A DNA stretch of 64,000 nt from the NCBI RefSeq assembly GCF_025399835.1, contig NZ_JAODVR010000001.1, positions 2,356,001 to 2,420,000 of the forward strand, given 5' to 3'. The notes beneath the pieces are model-generated. The model ran no database searches. It was given only the letters and a program-made list of their open reading frames with translations, and was not told the origin of the DNA. The translations under genes were made by a program, and so were the position numbers. Source of the DNA: Haloarchaeobius sp. HME9146. Lineage in GTDB: Archaea; Halobacteriota; Halobacteria; Halobacteriales; Natrialbaceae. Below, piece after piece: positions 7,902-37,940 of the stretch (positions are counted from its first letter, which is position 1; each line of letters starts with the position of its first letter).

Positions 7902-8825
7902 ATGATAACCGTCGAGGACCTCCACAAATCGTACGACGGGTTCGTGGCCGTCGACGGCAGTTCCTTCACCGTCGACCGGGGCGAGGTCTTCGGCGTCGTC
8001 GGGCCGAACGGTGCGGGAAAGACGACGACGTTGAAGATGCTCGCCGGCCTCATCGAGCCGACGAGCGGCCACATCTCCATCGCCGGCCACCCCGCCGGAG
8101 ACACCGACATGCGCCGGAATCTCGGCTTCCTCCCCGAGGAGTCGCCGCTCTACGAAGAGATGACGGCACACTCCTATCTCGAGTTCTTCGCCGACCTGTA
8201 CGACGTCCCCAGCGACGTGGCAACAGAGCGTATCACGACCGCACTCGACCGGCTCGACCTCGAACACCGGGAGCGCCGAATCGGCGACATGTCCAAGGGC
8301 ATGAAGCGCAAGGTCGCCATCGCCCGGTCCCTCGTCAACGACCCGGACGTGCTCATCTACGACGAGCCCGCATCCGGACTCGACCCTCTCACGACGAACT
8401 ACATCATCGAGTTCACCGAACAGCTCGCCGCCCAGGGCAAGACGATTGTCTTCTCCGCACACAACCTCTACCACGTCGAGAGCATCTGCGACCGCGTCAT
8501 CGTGATGAACCACGGCGACATCATCGCCCGTGGCAGCCTCGAAGAGATCCGCCAGGAGCACGGTCGGACCGCCTACCACGTGTTCACCGACGTTCGTGTC
8601 GAGGGCAGCGAACGCGTCGGTGACGGCCGGTTCGAGACGGTCGTCTCGGACATGGACGCCGTCGACCGACTCCGGTCGCAGGCGACGAGCCGGGGCGGCT
8701 CGGTCGTCGACCTGCAGACGAAGAACCCGAGCCTGGAGGACATCTTCCTCGACATCGCCGGCGAGACGCCCGAGGAGGCCCGTGAGGCGGAGCAGGACCG
8801 GACCGTCGGGGAGGCCGAGACGTGA
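7902..8825 (+). CDS. ABC transporter ATP-binding protein (ABC-2 exporter)
   Basis: A 307-residue nucleotide-binding subunit. Walker A GPNGAGKTTT lies near residues 34-43, a Q-loop region LGFLPEES, the signature MSKGMKRKV (a variant of LSGGQ common in Nat/CcmA-like exporters), Walker B VLIYDEPASGLDP, and the switch His in VFSAHNLYH. The C-terminal 80 residues form the regulatory extension of drug or Na+ exporters. ATG 7902 is chosen because the conserved fold begins with MITVEDLHKSY. It overlaps the permease start by 4 nt (GTGA). It powers the two permeases that follow. Confidence 0.92.
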   Translation: MITVEDLHKSYDGFVAVDGSSFTVDRGEVFGVVGPNGAGKTTTLKMLAGLIEPTSGHISIAGHPAGDTDMRRNLGFLPEESPLYEEMTAHSYLEFFADLYDVPSDVATERITTALDRLDLEHRERRIGDMSKGMKRKVAIARSLVNDPDVLIYDEPASGLDPLTTNYIIEFTEQLAAQGKTIVFSAHNLYHVESICDRVIVMNHGDIIARGSLEEIRQEHGRTAYHVFTDVRVEGSERVGDGRFETVVSDMDAVDRLRSQATSRGGSVVDLQTKNPSLEDIFLDIAGETPEEAREAEQDRTVGEAET

Positions 8826-10642
8826 GCAGGCGCGGCCTCGACCGCGTCCTCTCGCTCCGCAAGACCCTGCGTATCGCCCGCTGGGAGGTCGCCCGGAGCG
8901 CCGGCACCCTCGACCGCCAGACCGTCGCGCTCGCGCTCGTCCTCGTCGCGGTCGGGGCCATCGTCGGGCCGACCGTCGTCGCACAGGGACCGGGCCTCGA
9001 CGACGGTATCTACCGGGTCGGCGTCGAGGAGGACTCGCCCTACCACGACGTGGTCACGAACACCAGCCAGTTCGTGGCCAGACCTGACGACGCCAGCGCG
9101 GCCGCCCTGAAATCGGGCGAGATAGACGTCCTGATTCCCGAACGGGGCGAGCCCATCCCCAGACCGACCCGGAAGGGCCAGGCCGCCTACGCGGAGTTCC
9201 GGACGGCGGTCCAGGAGTACAACGACCAGCTGATGGGCAACGAGTCGAACCAGAGCGCCGCGTTCCCGGTCGACGTCTCGCTCCAGTACGAGAGCCGCGC
9301 CGGAAGCGCCCTCACCGGCGGTGCCGGGAGCGGCGGCGGAACTGGAGATAACGGCGGGAGCGGTGGCGACGCCGGCACCGGCGGTGCAGCAGGTGGCGGA
9401 AGCGACGGCGGCCAGGCCGCCGTCGGGGGCGGCGACGACGGGCAGGTTCAGGCCCCACGACTGGGTGGCTCGGCAATCGTCAGTGGCTCGACCTCGGGCT
9501 CGCCGAGCAACATCAGCCCGCCGTTCCCGTTCGCCTCGCTGGTGCTCGCGTTCCTCTTCATCGTCCCGATGAACTTCATCATCCAGGCGTACGGGAGCAC
9601 CATCATCAACGAGCGCATCAACCGTCGGGGCGAGTTGATGCTCGTCTCGCCGGTCTCGCGCCGGGACATCATCGCGGGCAAGACCCTGCCCTACCTCGCC
9701 GCGTTGCTCGTCATCACGGTCGCCATCGCCATCCTCATCGGCGGGACCGCTGTGTCGGTGGCAGCAGTCCTGCCCATCGCCCTGTTGTTCCTCTCGGCGA
9801 CGTTCGTCGGCGGGATGTTCGCGCGGTCGTTCAAGGAGCTCACCTTCGTCACCATCACCGTCTCCGTGTTCATGACCTCCTACGTGTTCGTCCCGGCCAT
9901 CTTCACGGACGTGACGCCCATCGCGCTCATCTCGCCGCTGACGCTGGTCGTGATGGACCTGCAGAACGAGGCCGTGACGCTCGGAGAGTACACCTTCTCG
10001 ACGCTCCCGTTCTACCTGACCTCGCTGGCCCTGTTCACCTTCGGTGCGGGCACCTACCGCGAGGAGGACATGTTCAGCCAGCGCCCGGTCCACCAGAAGG
10101 CGCTCGACGCCATCGCGACCCGGGTCCGTAACAAGAAGACGGTCGCGCTGGTGACCGCGCTGTTCCTCCCGTTCGTCTTCGTCGCCGAGTTGCTCGCCAT
10201 CGCGGTGCTGTTCATCGTCCCGCCCGCGCTGTCGGTACCGGTGCTGTTCGGTGCCATCGCCCTCATCGAGGAGACCGCGAAGAGCATCCACGTCTACGCC
10301 GGGTTCGAGTACGCCCGGTTCGAGCGCTCGCCGAAGACCGCGGTCGTGCTCGGGCTGGTGAGCGGGTTCGCGTTCTTCGTCGCGGAGAAGCTCACCCTGC
10401 TGGTCCAGCTGGTCCAGTTGCAAGAGCTCACGCTCGGCCAGCGGGCGTACCCCGAGGCCGCGGCGACCGACCCCGTGGTCGTCCTCGGTCTGCTGTTGCT
10501 CCCGCTCGGACTGCACACCGTGACGGCGACCATCTCCGCGCTCGGTGCACAGCGCTCGAAACGGGCGTACGCGGCCGCCTTCCTGCTGGCGGTCGTGGTC
10601 CACGTGGCGTACAACATGGGGGTGACCCAGCTTGTCCCGTGA
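8822..10642 (+). CDS. ABC-2 permease fused to a PrsW-like intramembrane protease domain
   Basis: A 606-residue protein in two parts. Residues about 1-400 look like an ABC-2 permease: an N-terminal membrane helix, a large outside domain with a glycine/serine-rich linker (about residues 160-205), then membrane helices. Residues about 430-606 look like a PrsW-family (CAAX-protease-related) membrane metalloprotease, with the motifs LIEETAKS, FAFFVAEKL, a GLHTVT histidine and a final HVAYN. The start GTG 8822 overlaps the ATPase stop. It is the first of two permeases in the operon. The fusion suggests that export and membrane proteolysis act on the same substrate, or that the protease domain processes an exported peptide; this is inferred. 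Confidence 0.8.
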   Translation: MSRRGLDRVLSLRKTLRIARWEVARSAGTLDRQTVALALVLVAVGAIVGPTVVAQGPGLDDGIYRVGVEEDSPYHDVVTNTSQFVARPDDASAAALKSGEIDVLIPERGEPIPRPTRKGQAAYAEFRTAVQEYNDQLMGNESNQSAAFPVDVSLQYESRAGSALTGGAGSGGGTGDNGGSGGDAGTGGAAGGGSDGGQAAVGGGDDGQVQAPRLGGSAIVSGSTSGSPSNISPPFPFASLVLAFLFIVPMNFIIQAYGSTIINERINRRGELMLVSPVSRRDIIAGKTLPYLAALLVITVAIAILIGGTAVSVAAVLPIALLFLSATFVGGMFARSFKELTFVTITVSVFMTSYVFVPAIFTDVTPIALISPLTLVVMDLQNEAVTLGEYTFSTLPFYLTSLALFTFGAGTYREEDMFSQRPVHQKALDAIATRVRNKKTVALVTALFLPFVFVAELLAIAVLFIVPPALSVPVLFGAIALIEETAKSIHVYAGFEYARFERSPKTAVVLGLVSGFAFFVAEKLTLLVQLVQLQELTLGQRAYPEAAATDPVVVLGLLLLPLGLHTVTATISALGAQRSKRAYAAAFLLAVVVHVAYNMGVTQLVP

Positions 10643-32918: not shown

Positions 32919-32992
32919 GGGCCGGTAGCTCAGTTAGGCAGAGCGTCTGACTCTTAATCAGACGGTCGCGTGTTCAAATCGCGCCCGGCCCG
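32919..32992 (+). tRNA. tRNA-Lys(CTT)
   Basis: A 74-nt cloverleaf. The acceptor GGGCCGG pairs with CCGGCCC and a G discriminator follows. The anticodon loop CTCTTAA carries CTT (Lys codon AAG), closed by TCTGA/TCAGA. The T-arm reads GTGTTCAAATCGCGC. CCA is not encoded. A 3'-end direct copy occurs 172 bp downstream. Confidence 0.95.
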
Positions 32993-33168
32993 CTTTTCAG
33001 GATGCAACAACGCGAGCGAAGCGAGCGTTCAGCATCCCGAAACGGGAGACTAGAGATTTGAACGCAGCGAGCAGTGCGCGGTTCGAGGATACGAGAACCG
33101 CGATGCGAACGGCGGAGCCGTGAGCAGCTTGCTGCGAGTGAGTGTTCATAATCGCGCCCGGCCCGCTT
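32993..33168 (+). repeat. tRNA-Lys-linked structured element with a copied tRNA 3' end
   Basis: Contains, in order: hairpin GATGC/GCATC and AACGC/GCGTT capped by CGAGCGAAGCGAG (33013-33025); GATTTGAAC (33055-33063), the exact reverse complement of tRNA T-arm bases 32972-32980; CGCGGTTC/GAACCGCG stem (33077-33084 and 33095-33102); ACGGC-GGA-GCCGT (33109-33121); GCAGC-TT-GCTGC (33124-33135); and a direct copy of the T-arm plus acceptor 3' end (33143-33168; one extra base). The same layout follows tRNA-Trp. Confidence 0.85.
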
Positions 33169-33702: not shown

Positions 33703-35307
33703 TTACCAAGTAGCCCGCCTCCCGAGTACGAAAACAAGCAGAGCCATAAGTGAAGCCCCAATTACAGCTTCACTTGCAGCAACGTATCTGGAGAATCCCT
33801 CAGGCTGAATGTCTCCATACCCTAAAGTAGTAAATGTAACAATGCTGAAGTATAGGCTTGTAAACCACAGTTCGAGGTCAAATTCTACGCTGCAGGACAA
33901 AATCGCATCGATTGGGGATGAATATTTTATCATGTCTCCACCCTGATTTATGCCCCATATTGGGTAGATAAACGAATATATAAGTGTTGTAAAACCAAGC
34001 GATGCAAGTACATTTCGGTGCCCCTCTCCATAATTTATAGTCAAGCGCGAAAGCTCTGACTTTATGCAGGTTGAGACCTTTTTGATCTGGGAACCAAACC
34101 GTAAATGGAAATCTGTATCTGAATCTTTCTCGGGTGTGAGTAGATTGGCAATATATCCAGCCTTTCGCGTCATTAGTCCACTGAAACCATCACTGTCAGT
34201 AGAAACTGGACCACACAATTGAATCCAACTCAGTCTCCTCTTCAGATCCTTCTCCTTAATATAATATTCCTGGGCTTGCTTCGACAAAGCATTGTCCTTG
34301 CTTAGATTAGAAAGCGAGTTGTAGGTCCAAATGGCACGGTTGATCTGTTCAACTTTCGCATCTTTATCGTCACGACTCACAGACTCTTTCTCATATTTTG
34401 ATATAGAATCAAAGTTGGTATCGTGGTCGATAATCGCGTCCGAAATTACTGCCGAGTGTAACTTTGTGTCTACTAATTCCGTACTTTGAAGGTTTGCACC
34501 ATCGAGGACTGCCCTCTCCAGTGTTGAACCACTAAGGTTCGCATCGAATGCAAAGACGTTAGTTAAGTTCGCATTTGTAAAATCAGCGTTGATAGTGGCA
34601 TTAGACATATTAGCTCCGCGTAAATCTGCCCCTGTTAATACCAAATCTGCGAATTCCGTCTCACTAAGGTCTGCATTGCAAAAGTTCGCATCTATCAAAT
34701 CTCGACACAGCTTGGACGAACGATCAAAGTCAGCACTCTTGAAGTTAGCAGAATCCTTGAAATCTGCGTCAATGAAATTAGTACCCTTGCACACTGAATC
34801 TTGGAAATCAGTTTTTTCCTTGGTGAATGTTGAATTGTCAAAAGTGGCGTCTACAAACCGACTTCCAGATAAGTCACTCCCAGAGAAATCTACTTGATCT
34901 AACTCGGCATTCTCGAAAGAAGAGTAGAAGAGGATCATATTTGAAAGATTCACATTTGATAGTTCCGCATCGTCAAAATTGGCCCACAAAAATGAAAATT
35001 CTGTTAAATCACTCCCATTGAGTGTACAATCTTCCAGATGTGGCTCACAGACCAATTTTTGTTTGTTGCTACTTGCTGACTTAATGTCTTTTGTAGATTT
35101 TCCAGACCTTTGAGTGTGCCATACACAACGATTTGAATCCGTTTCAGCTTCTCTCGGACATTGATGTTCCTGAAGTTGAATATCATCTATACTTCCAGAA
35201 ATCTCTTTCTCCTCTCCTAATTGATTATACTTTATGTCTCCATATTGGCCAAATTGTTGTTCCTTTTTCCGTGACCAAGAGAATTCATATTCACACTGGT
35301 TAGTCAT
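33703..35307 (-). CDS. pentapeptide-repeat protein fused to a K+-channel domain
   Basis: A 534-residue protein. Residues about 1-70 contain a Cys/His cluster (HQCPREAETDSNRCVWH). Residues about 90-285 are pentapeptide repeats of the A(D/N)LSG type, for example LTGADLRGANMSNATINADF and ANLSGSTLERAVLDGANLQS, which form a right-handed beta-helix. The end is a two-helix ion channel: a helix around LGFTTLIYSFIYPIWGI, then the selectivity filter TTLGYGDIQP (about residues 493-502) and a last helix. It is in DNA much richer in A/T than the neighbours. It may be an ion channel gated by a helix-shaped sensor domain, inferred. Confidence 0.8.
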   Translation of the reverse strand: MTNQCEYEFSWSRKKEQQFGQYGDIKYNQLGEEKEISGSIDDIQLQEHQCPREAETDSNRCVWHTQRSGKSTKDIKSASSNKQKLVCEPHLEDCTLNGSDLTEFSFLWANFDDAELSNVNLSNMILFYSSFENAELDQVDFSGSDLSGSRFVDATFDNSTFTKEKTDFQDSVCKGTNFIDADFKDSANFKSADFDRSSKLCRDLIDANFCNADLSETEFADLVLTGADLRGANMSNATINADFTNANLTNVFAFDANLSGSTLERAVLDGANLQSTELVDTKLHSAVISDAIIDHDTNFDSISKYEKESVSRDDKDAKVEQINRAIWTYNSLSNLSKDNALSKQAQEYYIKEKDLKRRLSWIQLCGPVSTDSDGFSGLMTRKAGYIANLLTPEKDSDTDFHLRFGSQIKKVSTCIKSELSRLTINYGEGHRNVLASLGFTTLIYSFIYPIWGINQGGDMIKYSSPIDAILSCSVEFDLELWFTSLYFSIVTFTTLGYGDIQPEGFSRYVAASEAVIGASLMALLVFVLGRRATW

Positions 35308-35402
35308 GTGGTAGATGTTAACTAAAATTCAAGATTTATCCTATACATAGTTTTCTACAATCTCTGCTGAGCGGAGAATGTGGGACATGGAACGTATGAA
35401 GG

Positions 35403-35408
35403 TTTAAG
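35403..35408 (+). promoter_or_regulatory. TATA element of the unknown two-gene operon
   Basis: TTTAAG is 28-33 bp before the GTG start at 35436, which fits a leaderless transcript and supports that start. Confidence 0.4.
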
Positions 35409-35435
35409 AGATACTGGAAGAAACCTCACCACATC

Positions 35436-36554
35436 GTGCCCGCTTTCGAGTACATCAACACCAGACGAGAGCTGAAACAGATGCTTCGAGAGCGGATGGT
35501 GGATTCTTATGATTCTGTTGCAACAAAACAGGAGCTTCACGACGGGCAGACGTACCTGAAGTCCTATCTAATTGAATCTAACCGATCTTCGCTCTCAGAG
35601 GGCACTGTCTCGCTTGGTGATCAGCAGTTGCATATCTCGGAGACTCAAGAACCTGGTTTCGTTCGGGCAACCGCCCAAACCGATGACGGCCGGGTTTACT
35701 TCTTTATCGATAAACTGAATGAGCGATTTTGGTCTATACACACGGTAGCTAAAGCAACTGTTAGTGATAAAATTATTAAACGGATTATCTTTCCGAGATT
35801 CACTGAGCTGGATTATCCCTGGCTCTCTAATGGGTTCCTTGAGAGGGTAGGAAAACAACCAGAAGCCACTTTTAGAGCGTTCTCTGTAAAATTCGAAGAC
35901 GAATTCCATGAGATAACTGAGAACAGTGGTGGTGTTGAAGGACTTTCAATGCGTCTTTGGGGAAATAGTGCAGACGAGGTTTTGGATACGCTTAGAACTA
36001 ATCAGAATATCAGCGGTTCTACCTCATTATCAAATGTTGGGATTAAAAAAGAATTTGGAGAGCGTGTTCTTCTGAGTGACATTACGTACCAATCAAAGTT
36101 CACAGCGAGAGGCGAATCCGTTGAGGGGCATCTTAGCCAGGTGCGGAATGTCATGGAAGACTATTACACAATCTTGGATAAGGTCGAAAATGAGTATAGT
36201 ATGTATACTGAGCGAAGAGGGAGCGGAACTCACATCGATGGCCACCCCTTGTTAATCGACTTCGATCGAGAAATAGAGAATCTCAGAGAGTTTGTAGATG
36301 AACTATTCTCGTCTACAAACCCGTTCCGCCTCTGGGGAATTGTCGATGAAGTAGAGGAGGACTATTATACTGTCGCTGGTGTTGACATGCACACCGGTGA
36401 CAAAATCGATTTTGAAGTTTGTCCCAACTGGATACGAATCTATCTACCAAAGGGAAGCTGTGGAAATGTCGTGATGAGATTGTATACAAATATACAACAT
36501 TATTACGATTCAAAATCTACACTGGAGGGAGAAGACAGTGAGCAACTTATCTAA
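35436..36554 (+). CDS. unknown protein A of an AT-rich two-gene operon
   Basis: A 372-residue protein with no signal peptide or membrane segment. It begins MPAFEYINTRRELKQMLRER (GTG start). It has a probable beta-rich middle (RVYFFIDKLNERFWSIHTVA), then a coiled-coil-like helical part (HLSQVRNVMEDYYTILDKVE), and a C-terminal beta portion (FRLWGIVDEVEEDYYTVAGV, EVCPNWIRIYLPKG). I recognise no family. It overlaps gene B by 17 nt. Codon use is AT-rich, unlike flanking core genes, which suggests recent acquisition. Possible function: partner of a nuclease-like protein in defence, inferred. Confidence 0.7.
   Translation: MPAFEYINTRRELKQMLRERMVDSYDSVATKQELHDGQTYLKSYLIESNRSSLSEGTVSLGDQQLHISETQEPGFVRATAQTDDGRVYFFIDKLNERFWSIHTVAKATVSDKIIKRIIFPRFTELDYPWLSNGFLERVGKQPEATFRAFSVKFEDEFHEITENSGGVEGLSMRLWGNSADEVLDTLRTNQNISGSTSLSNVGIKKEFGERVLLSDITYQSKFTARGESVEGHLSQVRNVMEDYYTILDKVENEYSMYTERRGSGTHIDGHPLLIDFDREIENLREFVDELFSSTNPFRLWGIVDEVEEDYYTVAGVDMHTGDKIDFEVCPNWIRIYLPKGSCGNVVMRLYTNIQHYYDSKSTLEGEDSEQLI
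36524..36528 (+). promoter_or_regulatory. Shine-Dalgarno site of gene B
   Basis: GGAGG lies 9 nt before the GTG at 36538 inside the end of gene A. It decides the GTG as the start and shows internal ribosome entry in a two-gene mRNA. Confidence 0.6.
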
Positions 36555-37380
36555 ACGAACTCGTCTAATAAATATCTGTATCGGGTTTACGAAAAGTATG
36601 CCCCATTGGCCCTCGTTCTTAGACAGTGCTGGGTATGACTTGCAATCAGTGCGGCCTATCTTGGTCAATTCAGACGATGACAAGGTGGTCCCTGATTTGC
36701 TGTTGGGCTCTACTTTCGCTCAAAATGTGCTTGTTGCGAATTGTGAAGGAAATCGGGTGCCTGATGAGGAATTCGACAGTTTAGCAGCTATACGTCCAAT
36801 AGATCTCCGTACCAGTGTCGAAAACCTCGATGTAGAACAATTGACAAGCGAAATATTTTTTGTGGGTGGCTCCGATACCGAGGCATCAATAAATGCAAAT
36901 GGAAGTGACTTCCCAGCGATTATTATAAACGGAGACCGATATAAGCAATTAAATGAATTCCAGGATGACAACGTAAATCGGAATCTCCCAGGTGGACGAC
37001 TCCCAAGAATGCGACCACCAACCCTCTTCCATCCGTTCTCTCCTGAAGATGACCGGGCAAGAATCGCGGTCTTCTTAGGTCGTGAATTAGGCCATCTCGC
37101 CGCAAAAGGTGAAAACGATAAAATCAAAATCGAGGTTGAGGAACTTTTGGAGGGTGCATTTGATTCCTGGGAACAAATAGATTCTGATGAAAAAGAAAAG
37201 CTGATTCGCAAAGCCGAAGACATACTTAAGCTATTTGAAAAGAAAGATGTTGAAGGCCACATGGAGAAGCTTGATCAACGGAAATATTATGTAAATAGTA
37301 GCCAAGCTCTCGAACGGAAATTTCAGGAGGTCGCCAATGATTTATCTAACGATGATTCGTCTCTAACCGACTGGATGTAA
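36538..37380 (+). CDS. unknown protein B, possible degenerate PD-(D/E)XK core
   Basis: A 280-residue soluble protein. Near residues 50-75 it reads VVPDLLLGSTFAQNVLVANCEGN, which has the shape of a PD-(D/E)XK nuclease core (PD motif, a strand, then E-C-K at the next strand), but the catalytic Glu and Lys positions appear as Asn and Glu/Gly. The second half holds a charged helix (DSWEQIDSDEKEKLIRKAED). The GTG start is decided by GGAGG at 36524. Overlap with gene A shows coupling. The family is unknown to me and the nuclease reading is an inference. Confidence 0.65.
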   Translation: MSNLSKRTRLINICIGFTKSMPHWPSFLDSAGYDLQSVRPILVNSDDDKVVPDLLLGSTFAQNVLVANCEGNRVPDEEFDSLAAIRPIDLRTSVENLDVEQLTSEIFFVGGSDTEASINANGSDFPAIIINGDRYKQLNEFQDDNVNRNLPGGRLPRMRPPTLFHPFSPEDDRARIAVFLGRELGHLAAKGENDKIKIEVEELLEGAFDSWEQIDSDEKEKLIRKAEDILKLFEKKDVEGHMEKLDQRKYYVNSSQALERKFQEVANDLSNDDSSLTDWM

Positions 37381-37703
37381 TATCTAAAATTCTACTCCAC
37401 CCCTAGTACCGAAGTTCGTGGCCCAAAAAATCAGATGCTTGTTGAGATGAGGGATGAGTGAGACAAGACCGTCCAAAGACGAGTGGTTACCAATAGATGC
37501 TCTGAGGTCCCCTCTTGCCACTCTCTGCAATCCAGTATCCTGACTCTGCATACAGAATACCCTCGCATTCTCTATTAGTGTCGCGTTGATCCAGTGGTCC
37601 GGCTTGAGGATGCCTCACAGCAGTTACGTCAGGAAACGCATGTTAACGTCTGTTCTTCCCGTTCAAGATACACCCTGCTCAAACCACCGCCCGCTCGGCG
37701 GAC
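37381..37703. other. non-coding remnant sequence between island and YgjP fragment
   Basis: No supported gene. Base composition rises from the AT-rich island value toward the normal GC level. The stretch leads without a stop-free frame into the truncated YgjP coding region. Confidence 0.5.
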
Positions 37704-37940
37704 CATCGTTGGGGTGAGTACCATGATGACGTGGTCTCACTGCACTGGCGTCTCATTCTCGCCCCGAAACGGATTCAGGACTACGTTCTCGCTCACGAGC
37801 TGGCCCATGCGAAGTACGGTGACCACAGCGAGTCGTTCTGGAACACCGTCGGGACCCTGATACCGGACTACCAAGACCGGCGCGAGTCAGTAGTGCTCAT
37901 GCCGCAGGCGTTCTTGTGCGAACGAGACGTAAGTCGGTGA
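37704..37940 (+). pseudogene. YgjP-like metallopeptidase, N-terminally truncated
   Basis: Only the C-terminal third of a YgjP/DUF45 (M48-like) protein remains: the frame reads HRWGEYHDDVVSLHWRLILA, then LAHELAHAKYGDHSESFW with the HELAH zinc motif and the downstream His, and LIPDYQDRRESVVL. The catalytic motif is intact but the N-terminal domain is gone. The GTG at 37731 is unlikely to be a real start. It lies at the right edge of the AT-rich island, where an insertion or deletion may have cut it. Confidence 0.75.

Follow-up and report, generated by a model that had tools for sequence, protein, structure and literature searches.

Introduction

Some abortive-infection systems combine a cytosolic sensor complex with a membrane effector that can be exchanged. 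Another described system, the RnlA/RNase LS anti-phage toxin, contains TBP-like domains (PMC3710099). Here we analyze a gene pair, A/B, in a 64,000-nucleotide stretch of haloarchaeal DNA, called the window throughout. Protein A is weakly like RnlA in fold, with a Foldseek probability of up to 0.75 in the PDB and of 0.98 against a phage RNaseLS-like model. Unlike in RnlA, no HEPN RNase domain was found in A, and the partner of A is B rather than RnlB. We conclude that A/B belongs to an undescribed two-gene family that is widespread and probably antiviral.

Results

A gene pair and a divergent third gene beside a tRNA-Lys

The first-pass annotation of this DNA had described two GTG-start genes with AT-rich codons that overlap by 17 nt, with an internal GGAGG. 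The open reading frames and the sequence bear out the starts, the overlap (36538-36554) and the GGAGG, and the island holding A/B is AT-rich, at ~42% GC against ~65% around it. The A/B pair is thus real as described, but the two-gene interval was incomplete, as it omitted the divergent gene C, which very probably belongs to the same functional unit. The annotation had likewise made no mention of the pattern seen across the family or of the clamp-type tail of B, both described below. The elements of the locus are:

32919-32993, plus strand: tRNA-Lys (CTT), an integration hotspot adjoining the island
32977-32995, plus strand: copy 1 of a 19-bp att-like direct repeat, at the 3' end of tRNA-Lys; copy 2 at 33150-33168
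33703-35307, minus strand: gene C, 534 aa, with a pentapeptide-repeat region and a 2-TM ion-channel domain (by Pfam and PHROG); putative membrane effector
35308-35435, no strand: the 128-bp intergenic region between the divergent genes C and A
35436-36554, plus strand: gene A, an open reading frame with a GTG start, 372 aa; conserved core protein
36524-36528, plus strand: GGAGG, Shine-Dalgarno-like, within gene A and 9 nt before the GTG of gene B
36538-37380, plus strand: gene B, an open reading frame with a GTG start, 280 aa; predicted PD-(D/E)XK-fold protein with a degenerate catalytic motif

The tRNA-Lys site is a cargo-exchange hotspot; far less is found there in four further species of the genus. 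Downstream of B, at 37594-37940 of the window, lies the remnant of a YgjP-like metallopeptidase, with disrupted frames and a match to the C-terminal part only. In G003, a sister species within the genus, this tRNA-Lys is occupied by a different island (L152, 3165-9369), which encodes a tyrosine-recombinase-like integrase (8027-9163, minus strand) and a 621-aa protein whose function is unassigned.

Predicted folds of proteins A and B

A is the better-conserved core of the pair: its family has 16 invariant residues across archaea and bacteria, and the window's A keeps all 16. Its AlphaFold model (pLDDT 83.8, pTM 0.85) gave weak Foldseek matches to TBP-type proteins, RnlA, Iml3 and phage RdgC-type proteins, and RnlA Pfam models had no match in 12 A-family members at E ≤ 1. 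Judged by the model, A probably adopts a repeated TBP/RdgC-like alpha-beta fold that binds nucleic acid. Two haloarchaeal plasmids (Natronosalvus and Salinibaculum; L015, 5983-6423, and L016, 6115-6363) encode a short protein made up of the C-terminal domain of A by itself.

B evolves fast. It contains a short stretch that the earlier annotation had read as resembling a PD-(D/E)XK nuclease core with the catalytic residues replaced:

36685-36756, plus strand: degenerate core motif VVPDLLLG...VLVANCEGN, from an alignment of 36 distinct B sequences

In this alignment the window's B retains the Asp of PD, while the D/E is replaced by N and the Lys by E; at the same columns its relatives read PDLILT..IVIDCKS, PDVILV..IFECKS, PDVVLT..LIVDCKS and others. 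PD...(D/E)xK is kept in almost all B relatives, the exceptions being certain lineages. Because homologues have catalytic residues at the same columns, the core is real and degenerate rather than a chance resemblance. The AlphaFold model of B (pLDDT 82.6, pTM 0.83) has mostly PD-(D/E)XK proteins as its Foldseek neighbours in the PDB, with a best probability of 0.98 at E ~0.01; among them are R2 endonuclease, SPO1766/3dnx (probability 0.98), XisH, Bax1, DrdV, Hjc, McrC and Can2. A sequence search of the PDB with the A and B profiles returned chance-level matches only. Structure prediction, which had been proposed as a check, thus finds in B a restriction-endonuclease-type alpha/beta core with the strand order conserved in the PD-(D/E)XK superfamily, and the nuclease link, until then a motif reading, is upheld by intact homologues, a confident model and the fold matches. 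The replacement of the catalytic residues holds as well, since the window has N-C-E where relatives have (D/E)xK. Reading D...N-C-E among intact homologues, the window's B is a member of the fold that is not predicted to be an active nuclease; alignment and model together assign it to the PD-(D/E)XK fold with its predicted catalysis lost.

Gene C encodes a channel-like protein

C matches the Pfam families Pentapeptide (5e-30) and Ion_trans_2 (2e-13; 50.4 bits against a cut-off of 22.5), as well as phrog_15350, and the TxGYG filter is present in it as TTLGYGD. The nearest relatives of the window pair, L078 (G085) and L079 (G087), are ~49% identical in A and ~30% in B. Both keep C in divergent orientation to A with a comparable gap and have a tyrosine integrase after B, although their outer flanks are different. 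C stands divergent from A in exactly three A-family loci (the window, L078 and L079), which belong to three genera; no other haloarchaeal locus of the A family has a B that lost the Lys. The same divergent position of C recurs in seven loci of a second pair, A'/B', described below; in the nine channel loci other than the window, the gap from C to A or A' is ~80-111 bp.

Upon comparison of these ten linked copies, we found the K+ filter TTLGYGD only in the window's C. We therefore rejected the idea that C is a plain K+ channel effector everywhere. As the filter is absent in the nine other linked copies, ion conduction is unproven, and ‘channel-like’ is the safe term. A-linked and A'-linked C form separate clades in a tree, and two separate recruitments of C are therefore probable. 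Haloarchaea commonly have channel-type genes, often with no A/B nearby. In three genomes (L197, L209 and L211), a same-strand operon of ~300-aa and ~630-aa genes precedes longer pentapeptide-channel proteins (ORFs of 648-665 aa), possibly a further system with a C-type channel.

Remote homologues and a second membrane partner

Following the C family led to the seven further haloarchaeal loci in which C is divergent from another two-gene pair, A'/B', and a search with A' yielded a third set, A''/B''. Profile comparison connects A with A'' (P = 5.8e-10), A' with A'' (3e-39), B with B'' (1.7e-7) and B' with B'' (1.9e-15), against 0.07 to 0.6 for cross controls between unrelated pairs; A and A' compared directly gave 3e-6. 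The direct hhalign comparison of B with B' was not significant (P 0.54, or 0.04 with more rows), so the link between these two runs through B''. On these profile scores, A'/B' and A''/B'' are remote homologues of A/B. A' and A'' are patchily distributed, occurring in 23 of 145 genomes.

In nine A''/B'' loci, a conserved single-TM protein (163-204 aa) is encoded immediately upstream in the same orientation. Of the TM-bearing ORFs adjoining A, only the channel cluster (10 loci) and this single-TM cluster (9 loci) recur. As all but these two families were singletons, we rejected the notion that a TM gene counts as a partner simply by lying beside A. B'' without a partner mostly reads VECKSG, VECKAG or GEAKS, that is, intact. 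B'' with the single-TM partner reads SCR, SCE, CCE, ICE, VCE, SCI, FCK or SCC, with the acid, the Lys or both gone (FCK, in L245, retains the Lys and has lost the acid), and B' with C has neither acid nor Lys at the aligned position. In Halorubrum aquaticum (L033, 5690-10970), A''/B'' with its single-TM gene lies back to back with an intact-nuclease A/B pair, and a large protein with PLD- and helicase-like sequence adjoins the two.

Loss of the nuclease site goes with the membrane partner

We tallied the state of B against the presence of a membrane partner in 62 modules with a readable B, scoring B as degenerate unless D...(D/E)xK was complete. The modules with a partner, 19 in number, were all degenerate and none was intact, whereas 36 of the 43 without a partner were intact and 7 degenerate (Fisher 1.5e-10 by row, a value that ignores relatedness). 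Collapsed at 60% identity of A, the tally is 20 intact without a partner, 12 degenerate with one and 4 degenerate without. On the tree, the degenerate state needs ~5 changes, at least 3 of them on well-supported branches. The partnered degenerate lineages are three (the window clade, the A' clade and an A'' subclade), separated from one another by intact lineages or by distance. This suggests that the active site was lost where the pair gained a conserved membrane partner, one weapon being swapped for another.

Two further lineages, the Methanosarcinia ELT type and L242/L248 (ECE and EIE), are degenerate without a partner and kept the acid while losing only the Lys. Since they lost it with no detectable partner, decay has not always followed the gain of a partner. 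In the Methanosarcinia loci L123 and L129-L132, B reads PD...ELTT or ELSA, which a Lys that migrated, or a partner that escaped notice, might explain; no recurrent third gene was found in the Methanosarcinia-type loci examined.

Clamp-type tails in B

A second motif lies at the C-terminus of B. In haloarchaea the PIP box reads QxxLxxFx, as described for Haloferax proteins (PMC7776575); the clamp motif of bacteria is QL[S/D]LF, which PolC carries at its C-terminus (PMC12309361). Many archaeal B proteins end in tails of the QxxLxxF/W type (QTSLDDF, QETLDKWF, QKTLDPW, QTRLGDY), and QLSLF ends B in two bacteria, Lysinibacillus and Enterococcus. Within the last 30 residues of B, a clamp motif is present in 19 of 41 sequence clusters, compared with ~3% by shuffling or in internal windows. 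These tails predict that members of the family act at the replication sliding clamp, perhaps to a lesser degree after loss of the nuclease. The Gln is missing from most single-TM-linked B'' and from the window's B, which has a weakened form of the tail:

37354-37377, plus strand: PIP-box-like tail DSSLTDWM, with the first Gln changed to Asp (from the tail table and chance rate)

Distribution and neighbourhood

Wherever B is readable downstream of A, it follows A directly. This adjacency is seen in haloarchaea, a Methanocaldococcus plasmid, Methanoperedens, Thaumarchaeota, Chloroflexota and Bacillota. Plasmid homologues come from Methanocaldococcus jannaschii, Halobacterium hubeiense, Metabacillus and Lysinibacillus, and further homologues from haloarchaea, Methanoperedens, Thaumarchaeota, a Dehalococcoidia MAG, Enterococcus and Methanosarcinia genomes. 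Among haloarchaea A is patchy, being present in 24 of 391 genomes. One small genome bin, Thaumarchaeota archaeon S13, holds several diverged A/B pairs or fragments on separate contigs (L135, L136, L138-L141).

No Pfam or NCBIfam family fits A or B, and PADLOC-DB 2.0.0 gave no match of A, B, A' or B' better than E 0.018; the earlier annotation had likewise recognised no domain in A. A, B and C match three families of unknown function in PHROGs, which is built from (pro)viruses. BLAST returned no hits for A and B among phage records and none for B among plasmids. In the literature we found no description of pentapeptide-channel defence, of clamp-linked anti-phage systems or of the M. jannaschii plasmid genes.

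Neighbours of A/B include type IIG and type I restriction genes, DrmMI-like methylases, OLD/GajA-like and AriA-like ATPases, integrases and resolvases, in a scan that had no matched control set. In line with the defence-type setting suggested by the first-pass annotation, homologues are found outside housekeeping operons: on plasmids, next to integrases, and in the vicinity of restriction or OLD-type genes. The case for a defence role of the A/B module is circumstantial.

Discussion

The reading that we favor, in which we place about as much belief as doubt, is that A, B and C form one horizontally moving conflict module, most likely antiviral and of the abortive-infection type, in which a nuclease effector has been replaced by a membrane effector. 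The A-B pairing, the homology and fold of B, its catalytic loss, the conserved linkage of divergent C and the recurrence in remote lineages are observed, and signs of mobility are found in the tRNA-Lys hotspot, the drop in GC, the integrases and the plasmids. The ancestral module would have been a two-gene complex, A-B, in which A would sense a nucleic-acid state, on DNA or RNA, and B would be a PD-(D/E)XK nuclease that cuts DNA, with the C-terminal sliding-clamp motif bringing the complex to replicating DNA. B would have lost its nuclease site to decay in the window's lineage, where C would have taken over the killing or arresting step, as a pentapeptide-repeat, 2-TM, pore-like membrane protein expressed from the divergent promoter region. 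Dead B may be kept as a structural adaptor within the A-B complex, which would gate C, and C would then permeabilise the membrane. In the derived A''/B'' types, the single-TM protein would serve as the membrane effector in place of C. The target would be a virus or a plasmid.

Some of these observations can also be read as decay, with A/B the remnant of a nuclease system, the loss in B simple degeneration and C an unrelated neighbour. B does evolve fast, the window has lost both the catalytic motif and the Gln of the clamp motif, and two lineages lost the Lys without a partner. Yet the frames are intact, A keeps every invariant residue of its family, the same three genes stand together in three genera with different surroundings, and the link between partner and catalytic loss recurs in three lineages; we hold plain decay to be rather improbable. 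It is unlikely, too, that A-B serves integrated elements as an accessory in replication or repair, tethered to the clamp through B and with an RdgC-like A, beside a C that acts in host potassium homeostasis or envelope stress. The clamp motifs, the weak RdgC/TBP-like fold of A, the matches of all three proteins to (pro)virus-built PHROGs and the K+ filter of the window's C would suit such a role, but the patchy distribution (24/391 haloarchaeal genomes), the conserved coupling to two unrelated kinds of membrane protein and the loss of the filter in nine of ten linked C argue against it.

A toxin-antitoxin or addiction module, with C (or B in its ancestral form) as a toxin restrained by A, would account for the overlapping genes, the location on plasmids and in an island, and the divergent C. 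We think this quite unlikely: both A and B are large, they stay paired in every case, also where C is missing, their sizes and the conserved three-part layout are unlike known toxin-antitoxin pairs, and the similarity between A and RnlA is a weak fold match with no RnlA Pfam match.

Returning to the conflict module with an exchanged effector, we put forward a wider claim tentatively and with more doubt than belief: that these genes represent an undescribed clamp-tethered immune superfamily of archaea and bacteria, built on a TBP/RdgC-like sensor A and a PD-(D/E)XK protein B, in which the nuclease was repeatedly replaced by one of two unrelated membrane effectors and the dead nuclease became an adaptor. 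If true, archaea and bacteria would have a link between immunity-type sensing and the replication clamp, and nature would provide a series in which a DNA-cutting effector gave way to a membrane effector more than once, the dead enzyme being kept as a scaffold. How modular defence systems change weapons would then become directly testable, as versions with an intact nuclease, a linked channel or a linked single-TM protein can be set against one another, two of the types adjoining each other in Halorubrum.

Among known systems, B shares its predicted fold with the PD-(D/E)XK superfamily (MmcB-like 3dnx, R2 endonuclease, XisH, Bax1, Hjc, McrC, Can2), and its relatives carry the PD...(D/E)xK signature, as the superfamily does. 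It differs in having no significant Pfam or PDB sequence match, in the missing catalytic D/E and Lys of the window copy, and in its clamp-type C-terminal tail. C, by Pfam and PHROG score, is a member of the haloarchaeal pentapeptide-repeat/Ion_trans_2 (2-TM K+ channel) proteins of phrog_15350, among which ten members stand apart by a fixed divergent arrangement with A or A'; the K+ filter is missing from nine of the ten. CBASS and type III CRISPR with TM effectors, like Hailong (doi 10.1038/s41586-025-09058-z, as cited in PMC12265719), offer a comparison in manner of working only. The A-B-C module differs from these systems in its protein families and in retaining a dead nuclease, and we detected no nucleotidyltransferase or nucleotide-binding signature in A or B.
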